From contig JACQKW010000003.1 in the NCBI GenBank assembly GCA_016204385.1, forward strand, positions 1 through 32,584: a stretch of DNA of 32,584 nucleotides, written 5' to 3'. Position 1 is the first letter of the stretch. Every line of letters starts with the position of its first letter. This DNA is from Candidatus Liptonbacteria bacterium. Its GTDB lineage: Bacteria; Patescibacteriota; Minisyncoccia; UBA6257; 2-01-FULL-56-20. Positions 1-10,389 of the stretch are shown here, in pieces. The position numbers were made by a program, and so were the translations under genes. The notes under the pieces are model-generated. The model was not told the origin of the DNA. It saw only the letters and a list, made by a program, of their open reading frames with translations, and did no database searches.

Positions 1-75
1 CGTCCTTCGACTTCGCTCAGGACTTTTTCCGACACGGAGGGAACCCGGTGGCTTTCCCTCCGACCCACCCTTCGG
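1..75 (+). repeat. Modular hairpin repeat, copy 1 (GTCC..GGAC hairpin, TTCCGACAC linker, GGAGGGAA/TTCCCTCC hairpin, GACCC..CTTCGG)
   Basis: Linkers and paired arms shared with copies at 7571-7692 and 10200-10277 (both minus). Begins with a CCTTCGACTTCGCTCAGG-type hairpin. Confidence 0.6.
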
Positions 76-108
76 TTCGAATCCCTGTCGATAACTTAGA
101 TACTGAAA

Positions 109-142: not shown

Positions 143-213
143 CTGCCGGGCAGGGATTCGAACCCCGATAAATACCTTCAAAGGGTACTGTCCTACCATT
201 AGACGACCCGGCA
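143..213 (-). tRNA. tRNA-Gln (anticodon UUG)
   Basis: Reverse complement TGCCGGG TCGTCTAATGGTAGGAC A GTACC CTTTGAA GGTAT TTATC GGGGTTCGAATCCCTG CCCGGCA G folds as a cloverleaf; 7-nt anticodon loop CT-TTG-AA. Confidence 0.92.
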
Positions 214-6076: not shown

Positions 6077-6087
6077 GGTACAATTAT

Positions 6088-6165
6088 GATACCAATATAC
6101 GAATTGTACTAATGATACGAATGAACATTATTTGTATCATTCGCATGCATTAGTATATTGGTATC
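6088..6165. repeat. AT-rich intergenic inverted repeat between divergent rpmA and exonuclease genes
   Basis: GATACCAATATAC (6088-6100) and GTATATTGGTATC (6153-6165), perfect 13-bp arms; related sequence at 753-812 and 29522-29602. Confidence 0.7.
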
Positions 6166-7339: not shown

Positions 7340-7546
7340 TCAAGAGGCCGTATATCCCAAATCCGCAATTGCTTTCACGATGTCTTCCTTTTTTACCTTC
7401 GCGGGATCGAATTCGAACGTTCCCTTCTTATCGTCGTAGCTTACTTCGGCTGATTTCACGCCGCCCATCTGCGACGCGAGCATCTGTATCCCCACGGCGC
7501 AGGAACCGCAATGCATTCCGTCTATCTTTAACGTAAGTTTCTCCAT
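7340..7546 (-). CDS. copZ: Heavy-metal-associated (HMA) domain copper chaperone, CopZ-like
   Basis: MEKLTLKIDGMHCGSCAVGIQ; GMHCxxC metal site. Confidence 0.92.
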   Translation of the reverse strand: MEKLTLKIDGMHCGSCAVGIQMLASQMGGVKSAEVSYDDKKGTFEFDPAKVKKEDIVKAIADLGYTAS

Positions 7547-7570
7547 AGAAATATTATAAGACGGAATGCA
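7512..7570 (-). repeat. Inverted repeat around copZ start codon and -10 box
   Basis: TGCATTCCGTCT (7512-7523) and AGACGGAATGCA (7559-7570), perfect 12-bp arms. Confidence 0.85.
7553..7558 (-). promoter_or_regulatory. -10-like box TATAAT for copZ (leaderless spacing)
   Basis: TATAAT-ATTTCT-ATGGAG on minus strand. Confidence 0.5.
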
Positions 7571-7692
7571 CTTCGGGCAAAAGGGGGTCCCGCCTCTGTC
7601 CCGCCACCGCGGGACTACGGACGGGCAAGCGGGGAAAAGGTTTGTTTTCCCGGTGTCTGAAGACCCCGCCTCCGGCGGGGGCGTTAGAAACC
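7571..7692 (-). repeat. Modular hairpin repeat, copy 3, between copA and copZ
   Basis: GGTTTCTAACGCCCCCGCCGGAGGCGGGGTCTTCAGACACCGGGAAAA..TTTTCCCCG...CCCGAAG. Confidence 0.75.
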
Positions 7693-7699
7693 ATTGAAT

Positions 7700-10171
7700 C
7701 TACGCCTTTTTCTCCATCGGCGGCGTGTAGCGCCGAAGCAAAAGCGAATTCGTGACGACCGACACAGAACTTAGCGCCATCGCAAATCCGGCGATCTCGG
7801 GCCGCAAGGTCGCCTGCGAGAGATTGAAGAAAATCTGCCCGATGCCGGAACCGAGCGCATTGCGCGCGGCGAGTATCCAGTCTGACGGCACGCCGAAGGA
7901 CGATTGCGTGAGAAGCAAATGAATGCCTCCCGCAATCGGTATCGCGATGATGTTGTAGATGAACGCCCAGAAGAGATTTTGCCACACCTTCTTGATGGTC
8001 TTTTTGGAAAGCTGGATCGCGGTGACCACGTCGCGGAGGTCATCCTTGACCAAAATCACTTCTCCGGTCTCGATCGCTACGTCCGTGCCCGAACCGATGG
8101 CGATGCCCACCTCCGCCTGCGCGAGGGCAGGGGAGTCGTTGATGCCGTCGCCAACCATCGCAACTTTTTTACCCTCCGCTTGGAGTTTTTTCACGACGTC
8201 CGCTTTCTGCTGGGGCAAAACCTGCGCGAGATAGCGGTCAATGCCAAGTTGGTGCGAAATTGCCTCGGCGGTTTTGGGGTTATCGCCCGTGATCATGATA
8301 ATTTCCTTGCCCATTTTCTTTAATCCCTCTATCGCCTCATGCGCGTGAGGTTTCAAAGTATCCGCGAGCGCGAGAATGCCGATAATTTTCTTCTCTGACG
8401 CCAAAAATACGACGGTTTTCGCCTCTCTCTGTAATTTTTCCACATCCACCTCGAATTCCTTGATATCCATTCCCAAACTTTCAACGAACGCGCTGTTGCC
8501 GATATGCACTTCCTTGTTCCCGATTTTTCCCTTCACGCCCAAACCCGCCACCGCCTCGAAATCGGTCACTTTGGGGAGCTCGCCGATCTCCGCTTTCGCT
8601 TTCTCCACGATCGCGCGCGCAAGCGGATGTTCGGAGCCCGTCTCAAGCGCGCCTGCAATCGCAAGCGCATCTTTTTTATTCATATCCCCAACCACCATAA
8701 AATCGGTGACGTTTGGCTTCCCGATCGTGAGCGTCCCCGTCTTGTCAAATGCAACGGTCGTAATTCTGTATGATTTTTCAAGCGCTTCGCCGCCCTTGAG
8801 AATTATGCCGAAATTGGTCGCGCGGCCGATGCCCACGATGAGCGCTGTGGGCGTGGCTAACCCCAAAGCGCAGGGGCAAGAGATCACCAAGACCGCGATC
8901 ATGCGGAGGAGGCCCGCACGGAAGGGGAGACCTGCCCCGAAATACCACCCCGCAAAGACCGCGATCGAGAGCAGGACCACGGCGGGCACGAAGTATTCGC
9001 TGATTTTGTCCACAAGATTCTCGATAGGCGCTCGCGACGCCTGCGCTTCCTCCACCATCCGCACCACCTGATAGAGGAACGTGTCTTTGCCGACCTTCGT
9101 TGCTTTGAAGGTTATCAAACCCTCCTGATTGATGGATGCGCCGATCACTTCGTCGCCCACGGTTTTCGAGACCGGATACGACTCGCCGGTCACCACTTTC
9201 TCGTCAATGTGGCTTTTTCCTTCGGTGATCATCCCGTCCACGGGGATCTTTTCGCCCGGCCGGACCACGATAAGGTCGCCTTCCTTAAGCTGGTCTACGG
9301 GCACAAGCTCTTCTTTACCGCCCTTCAGAACATGCGCCTCTTTTGCCTCGAGTTTCAAGAGTTCTTTGATGGCGTTCGATGCCCTTCCCTTTGCGCGCGC
9401 TTCGAGAAATCTTCCGAGGAGAATGAATGACAGAAGCGCCGCCGAGGACTCCCAGAACGGGTGGTCAATGTTAAAGAAAAGAAATCCGATTGCCGAGTAG
9501 AAGTACGCGGCAGAGGTCCCTAAGGCGACAAGCACATCCATGTTTGCCGAGCCCACGCGGATGGAGGTGAAGGAATTGCGGTAAAACGGCCACGCAATCA
9601 CAAACTGTATCGGCGTGGAGAGCACCCAGTAAATATAGTTCAGATCTATCCGAAACGGGGGATTCGCCACATTCACGAAAATGCCCGCGATGGCTTTTGA
9701 TGGTTGCGCCACGATCCAGAAAAGGTAATTCGTAAAGAATGAGCCGTATGCGGCAAATCCCTCCCCGGTGAGCGACGGCTGGCGGAGATTCAGAAAATCA
9801 AACAATTCATGCACATGCGTTACGTTGAACATGTGGATGAGCATATAGTAGAGGATGATGGGCGCGGAAATGACGAACGCGGCAATCACGCGGCGCTTTG
9901 CCTCCTCGATCTGGCGCGCTTCTTTTGCCTCCTCGTCCGCGGGCGTCGCTCCGGCTTCATCCGGCCGGATGAGGTCATAACCCAGCTTATTGATAAGCTC
10001 ATCAATCCGCGTGAGCGTGATCTTCGATTCGTCGAACTCGATCGCCACCTTCTCCGCGCCGTAGCTCGTCGTGATGGACGTGATGCCCTCCTGCTTGCCG
10101 ATCAATTTATCAATCAAGACCGAACAGGAAGCGCAATGCATTCCTTTAACTTTTAAAATATATTTACTCAT
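7700..10171 (-). CDS. copA: Cu+-exporting P1B-type ATPase
   Basis: N-terminal GMHCASC HMA domain, [33 protein letters not shown]. Confidence 0.97.
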
Positions 10172-10199
10172 CGTTGTGTGTTAAAGGAATGCATTGCGC
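10131..10199 (-). repeat. Perfect 20-bp inverted repeat around copA start codon
   Basis: GCGCAATGCATTCCTTTAAC (10131-10150) and GTTAAAGGAATGCATTGCGC (10180-10199), 29-nt loop containing the ATG at 10171. Confidence 0.95.
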
Positions 10200-10389
10200 C
10201 GAAGAAGGGGTCGGGAGGAAAGTATGAAGTTCCTCCCGTGTCGGAAGACCCCGCCTCCGGCGGGGGAGCTAGAAACCCCGCCTTCGCCCAACGGCTACGG
10301 ACGGGCAGGCAAGGGTGTCTAAGGAGTTTTGAGCGGCAGTCGAAAGACGACGCACAATGCATTCCTTTCACCTTGAGAACGTATTTCAT
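10168..10389 (-). pseudogene. HMA-domain N-terminal fragment fused to repeat-derived sequence
   Basis: [14 protein letters not shown] matches the copA N-terminus, then repeat-encoded sequence; 2-nt gap to cupredoxin stop and ATGA overlap with copA start. Confidence 0.6.
10200..10277 (-). repeat. Modular hairpin repeat, copy 2, upstream of copA
   Basis: GGTTTCTAGCTCCCCCGCCGGAGGCGGGGTCTTCCGACACGGGAGGAA..TTTCCTCCCGACCCCTTCTTCG. Confidence 0.8.

Follow-up and report, generated by a model that had tools for sequence, protein, structure and literature searches.

The window analysed here, a stretch of 32,584 nucleotides of a Candidatus Liptonbacteria genome (G000; contig JACQKW010000003.1), carries the copper chaperone gene copZ on its minus strand, and an inverted repeat flanks the start of this gene. 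The arms, at 7506-7523 and 7559-7576, are complementary at 16 of 18 positions and enclose a loop of 35 nt. A first-pass annotation had described shorter arms on either side of the copZ start, TGCATTCCGTCT (7512-7523) and AGACGGAATGCA (7559-7570). Both are present, each with a single occurrence, and both can be extended to 18 nt. It had moreover noted that one arm encodes DGMH and that the other abuts TATAAT-ATTTCT-ATG. Indeed, on the minus strand one arm codes for D-G-M-H-C-G of copZ, and the order of upstream arm, directly followed by TATAAT, ATTTCT and ATG (7544-7546), is read directly on the minus strand. In the following, A2 denotes a gene's own end, A a direct copy and B' an inverted copy of that end.

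7340..7546, minus strand: copZ, ORF encoding a 68-aa HMA copper chaperone (MEKLTLKIDGMHCGSC...), 67-68% identity to copZ of the relatives G024 and G022
7506..7523, minus strand: A2 arm at copZ, the true target (DGMHCG codons)
7553..7558, minus strand: TATAAT, -10-like box, 6 nt 5' of the copZ ATG
7559..7576, minus strand: B' arm at copZ, inverted copy of the target and probable right end of an element (CCGAAGTGCATTCCGTCT)
7577..7692, minus strand: putative decayed element core 5' of copZ, left half missing, read against the copA copy
7589..7629, minus strand: putative nested insert of 41 nt (CTTGCCCGTCCGTAG...GGCGGG), read from the sequence

The inverted repeat at copZ is real and not a product of chance. 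Repeats with at least 16 of 18 complementary positions and a gap of up to 60 nt are found at four places in the whole 32.6-kb window, as compared to a single hit in total (mean 0.05) over 20 order-1 Markov sequences of window length. Three of the four places belong to copies of one element, located at copZ, at copA and at the terminator of a tRNA gene at the left edge. A 17-nt inverted repeat with an additional internal palindrome (GATACCAATATACGAAT / ATTAGTATATTGGTATC; 6087-6165), located between the start of rpmA (minus strand) and the next gene (plus strand), is unrelated to the element.

Element copies in the window

The window contains three element sites: an intact one at copA, one at the left-edge tRNA gene and a decayed one at copZ. 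Features of the first two are as follows.

10131..10150, minus strand: A2 arm in copA (VKGMHC codons), complementary to 10180-10199 at 20 of 20 positions
10180..10199, minus strand: B' arm of the copA element
10198..10326, minus strand: copA element core with hairpins 2 and 3 (61.8 bits, E 4.5e-15)
10343..10389, minus strand: A copy, apparently a stranded older 5' end of copA, left of the core
3..76, plus strand: third core, at the tRNA gene (42.6 bits, E 6e-10)
74..87, plus strand: B' arm GGTTCGAATCCCTG at the tRNA gene, complementary to the T-arm at 151-164 at 14 of 14 positions
151..164, plus strand: A2 arm, the T-arm of the tRNA, whose gene lies on the minus strand

At copZ, the match to R1, a covariance model built from 25 copies of the element, is weak (7620-7689; 11 bits, whole-window E 0.17). 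When the copZ leader is aligned by eye to the copA copy, it reads GGTTTCTAACGCCCCCGCCGGAGGCGGGGTCTTCAGACACCGGGAAAACAAACCTTTTCCCCG, a 41-nt repeat (7589-7629), ACCCCCTTTTGC and then the arm; automatic alignment of the two copies gave no clean placement of the nested insert. The insert divides CCCCG^ACCCCC of the decayed core, and its relative in the copA copy sits within hairpin 2. At copZ there is neither an A copy nor a left core half; the end of copA lies just upstream (7700). The core alone being non-significant (E 0.17), we assign it to the family because it is collinear with the copA copy. The inserted sequence, a second repeat rich in GC (CTTGCC..CCCGTCCGTAG..GGCGGG), lies within both copies, at different points (7589-7629 and about 10262-10313, minus strand).

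Moreover, -10-like boxes recur at copZ. The box is TATAAT in this genome and TAGAAT in G024, and in G022 copZ there is TATTAA at the new start and TATAAT at the old start. This recurring box 6 nt before the ATG suggests a leaderless start of copZ, in which case the upstream arm would fall outside that transcript. Since the box stands at a fixed spacing in copZ of G022 and G024 too, it appears to be part of the gene, and the arm would then be a neighbour left behind by insertion. At copZ the arms probably serve no regulatory function of their own.

A dispersed family of hairpin elements

The R1 hairpin element is dispersed and measures about 75-130 nt. Of 61 relatives, 39 carry it, with 1-16 copies per genome; the genome analysed here contains 12. 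A stricter cut-off, applied to a phylum-wide sample of 240 genomes, found it in 17. Named carriers include Liptonbacteria, Staskawiczbacteria, Colwellbacteria, Wolfebacteria, Wildermuthbacteria and Yanofskybacteria. One element (L215) comes from a short contig assigned to Gastranaerophilales (Cyanobacteria-Melainabacteria group), probably through misbinning. In Rfam 15 the core had no match even at E up to 5-10, for the copper region as well as for 11 other loci, and a pattern scan of viral contigs found no element. The literature search, confined to open-licence papers and thereby no proof of novelty, yielded no description of the family. These copies apparently represent an undescribed family of small mobile DNA hairpins of Patescibacteria.

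With the core oriented such that the AACCCTCGGTT hairpin comes first and the ACACGGG...CCCGACCC hairpin second, a site consists of A, a variable hairpin, two conserved hairpins, B', a spacer and A2. The arms are locus-specific. Among 80 copies, B' scores on average 12.0 against its own A2 and 6.8 against the neighbours of other loci, and 71% of the B'-A2 scores exceed the 95th percentile of this control. The direct repeat of A and A2 has a mean score of 15.8, compared to 7.8 in the control. Some copies at genes other than tRNA genes are without a clear A2. Spacers often contain terminator-like hairpins; as these are separate, and as the copA and copZ copies lie at 5' ends, the idea that the element is a plain intrinsic terminator was rejected.

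Regarding the core hairpins, 86 distinct sequences show 96.9% of cells paired. Double-sided changes occur at 12 of 18 pairs, and cells with such changes number 341, versus 11-89 in slid-partner controls. This covariation is of the DNA type. Only 5 of 1494 standard pairs in the core are G-U (0.3%), as compared to 60 of 1226 (4.9%) for 57 tRNAs of these loci. Since G-U pairs would be tolerated in a transcribed RNA, their near absence indicates that the form under constraint is folded or palindromic DNA and not RNA. To us this is the strongest clue to the mechanism, and it points in the same direction as the suggestion of the first-pass annotation that the copZ repeat, if transcription starts at the ATG, would act at the DNA level. 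The leaderless-type box likewise makes a DNA feature likelier; the copper operator or cruciform regulator which that annotation had in mind was not supported, as discussed below.

Insertion sites and probable mobility

In 44 of 80 copies the 3' end of a tRNA or tmRNA gene faces the core within 160 nt. Measured at 37 tRNA loci, one end of the direct repeat falls close to the mature 3' end (median -1) and the other, the inner one, in most cases 14-18 or 22 nt inside, within or next to the T-loop; the breakpoints at tRNAs are fixed. Sites at other genes are the 3' ends of rpsI (seven genomes), rplK, rpsJ and gapdh and the 5' ends of copA and copZ. The rpsI 3' end is occupied at L076, L119, L121, L125, L142, L143 and L165, by an old shared insertion or by repeated targeting.

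An empty site is present at tRNA-Leu(caa) of G046, where G024 carries the element. Within a genus, copies per genome vary widely (13 versus 2 versus 1 in g4; 12 versus 1 in g13). G103 has near-identical cores at several tRNA genes as well as tandem arrays with units of 163 and 192 bp at tRNA-Ser and tRNA-Glu (L266, L267). In these recent copies the match between B' and target spans only about 7-15 nt, with mismatches, hence B' may not always arise at insertion. In G006, A, A2 and B' match over 17-22 nt at different tRNAs, perfectly at L141 and L166 and with one mismatch in A at L152; these copies look young. A second block of B', spacer and A lies left of the core at G022 copZ, L135 and L152, as if an older insertion had lost its core before the new element arrived.

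Homologues of copA and copZ

A CopZ search of 41 genomes returned 30 loci comprising copZ, copA and related HMA genes. Of 29 homologues tested, five have a strong upstream arm, namely copZ and copA of this genome, copZ and copA of G022, and copA of G024. Their scores are 11.5-20, equalled by none of 200 shuffles, and strong arms are limited to these five, which are also the ones with a core. The first-pass annotation had held that copZ homologues lacking the upstream arm would count against its reading, and 24 of the 29 copA/copZ homologues have no strong arm. G024 copZ follows directly after copA and is without an arm; G009 copA has an arm match of 9 nt (p about 0.01), and the architecture is absent there. 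The arms of G022 copZ and copA and of G024 copA match the GMHC codons of their own genes, and their sequences are unlike those of the window. Left of all five strong arms there is a common sequence, TCTTCCGACACGGGAGGAAC...TTTCCTCCCGACCCC..CTTCGG, which is intact at four and decayed at copZ of this genome. This sequence is also found at numerous other, unrelated sites. The earlier idea that copA and copZ share one design is thus borne out as to architecture and not as to regulation, the cause being the insertion of related elements.

The stranded old start of copA differs from the new start almost exclusively by synonymous changes, and in G022 copA the old and new starts show six third-position changes in twelve codons. 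This suggests that the two copA ends evolved as functional genes before they were joined; a selected leader peptide is also possible. Mini-ORFs that begin as HMA domains run through the element at 10168-10389 (minus strand) of the window and in the copA and copZ leaders of L031 (MSKYVLKVKGMHFAS..., MEKITLNITGMHFGS...). They probably represent stranded old gene starts, though they may also act as leader peptides.

Interpretation of the copZ repeat

In our reading, a small, non-coding mobile DNA element that integrates site-specifically near conserved gene ends has inserted upstream of copZ, and the repeat forms its right boundary (probability about 0.8). The core would fold into covarying hairpins and insert at the tRNA T-loop, at the last codons of ribosomal-protein genes or at the GMHC codons of copA and copZ. 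After insertion, the order would be A (the old or duplicated end), core, B', a spacer with a terminator or start region, A2 (the new or intact end) and the gene body. As A2 is supplied or kept at the locus, the gene would retain a working end. The copZ locus of this genome would have lost its A copy and the left half of its core, and the 41-nt repeat would have split the rest, leaving B'-TATAAT-ATG-A2. We infer that the element moves as folded single-stranded DNA, in principle like the recombination of integron attC sites, and that it uses a host enzyme such as Xer. B' may have come in together with the replacement end, may have been copied during insertion, or may have lengthened afterwards through palindrome correction.

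Two regulatory explanations were weighed against insertion. As an RNA switch or attenuator, the upstream arm would pair with the GMHC codons and hide the start, and copper or translation of a mini-ORF (MSKYVLKVKGMHF...) would alter the fold. The start codon of copA and copZ indeed lies within the loop, an HMA-like mini-ORF precedes both genes, arm and coding side have changed jointly in copA and copZ of G022, and a few differences in the copA arms (G022, G024) are of the G-U type. However, the same core with arms is found at the 3' ends of tRNA, tmRNA and ribosomal-protein genes, the core hairpins are almost devoid of G-U, the arm would lie outside the mRNA of the apparently leaderless copZ, and most homologues (24/29) are without a strong arm. 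We therefore regard an RNA switch as very unlikely. A copper riboswitch was at first favoured, as the copA/copZ leader looked conserved, and was dropped because the core also occurs at tRNA and ribosomal genes. Even less credible is a copper-responsive operator with the two arms as repressor sites around the copZ promoter. One arm adjoins the -10 box, AATGCATT is self-palindromic and the locus is a copper cluster; against this, the arm varies in sequence with the coding region of its host gene and the same design is found at non-copper genes. The operator or cruciform regulator of the first-pass annotation is at odds with the same architecture at tRNA, tmRNA, rpsI, rplK, rpsJ and gapdh genes. 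No association with copper genes was found, most copies being located at tRNA, tmRNA and other non-copper genes, and of the copper-responsive regulators, CsoR was not found in the genome and CopY/BlaI appeared below the cut-off only.

A further explanation concerns the origin of the arms alone and is compatible with insertion of a mobile element. Template switching during replication could later correct the palindrome, so that the match grows from a short initial complementarity (about GGTTC). The short, mismatched B' arms of recent G103 copies and the near absence of G-U would suit such a correction at the DNA level; the matches over 17-22 nt in the young-looking G006 copies speak against it, and we find it rather unlikely.

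Comparison with known systems and candidate enzymes

The integron integrase IntI recognises folded single-stranded attC hairpins (PMC11641012). R1 resembles attC in being a DNA hairpin of variable sequence and conserved structure with paired outer arms, and also in its tandem repeat units and site-specific insertion point. In contrast to attC, R1 is without gene cargo, no IntI was identified, and it targets the ends of tRNA and protein genes with an arm complementary to the host gene. The AAC/GTT triplets of attC are present in tRNA-type copies (L141, L166) and absent at copA, copZ and rplK. Integrative elements at tRNA 3' ends restore the gene and use tyrosine integrases. R1 shares with them the direct repeat of the 3' end, the fixed breakpoint in the T-loop region and the whole tRNA. 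Unlike them, it measures about 100-200 bp, carries no genes, has an extra inverted copy of the target and also occupies ends of protein genes; units of 163 and 192 bp are too small for an integrase gene of their own. REPs are interspersed palindromic repeats (PMC3733652). Small size, non-coding nature, dispersal and hairpin formation are common to R1 and to REP/BIME, Rickettsia palindromic elements and MITEs, whose ends are constant, whereas the outer arms of R1 are locus-specific and match the neighbouring gene. As these arms vary with the neighbour, shared terminal inverted repeats are missing and a MITE of a DNA transposon was rejected.

Concerning enzymes, nearly all relatives encode a tyrosine recombinase (Xer-like or IntI-like), mostly in one copy, and the majority of carriers possess a single Xer-like recombinase. 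In this genome, the assembly of which is 80% complete, an Xer-like recombinase was not found. Y1_Tnp was not found in the multi-copy carriers G000, G001, G002, G008, G022, G045 and G054, nor RVT_1 in the multi-copy carriers G001, G008 and G022. An IS200/IS605-derived (Y1 HUH) element and a retroelement were rejected, since Y1 and RT, respectively, are missing in several high-copy genomes. The most economical candidate enzyme is a host Xer-type recombinase acting on the folded strand.

Patescibacteria have tiny genomes in which few mobile elements are expected. Up to 16 copies per 0.5-1 Mb genome, at a fixed point of tRNA genes and at the ends of ribosomal-protein genes, would strongly shape gene ends. 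The locus-specific inverted arm raises the question of how an element acquires the reverse complement of the adjacent gene; if the arm sets the target, insertion would be directed by nucleic acid in a new way. Tentatively, and with somewhat more doubt than belief, we propose a new mobile class of gene-end cassettes, which would travel as a folded single strand of DNA with the help of a recombinase encoded by the host, find conserved gene ends because the outer arm is complementary to them, replace the gene end and strand the old one. If true, different arms would direct the element to different targets, and Patescibacteria would possess a natural DNA insertion system that can be re-targeted. 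Repeats of this kind at copper genes should not be taken for operators or riboswitches. An element can also lie inside an ORF: at L063 (about 1050-1150), one is located within a NUDIX-like ORF, the frame being open throughout.
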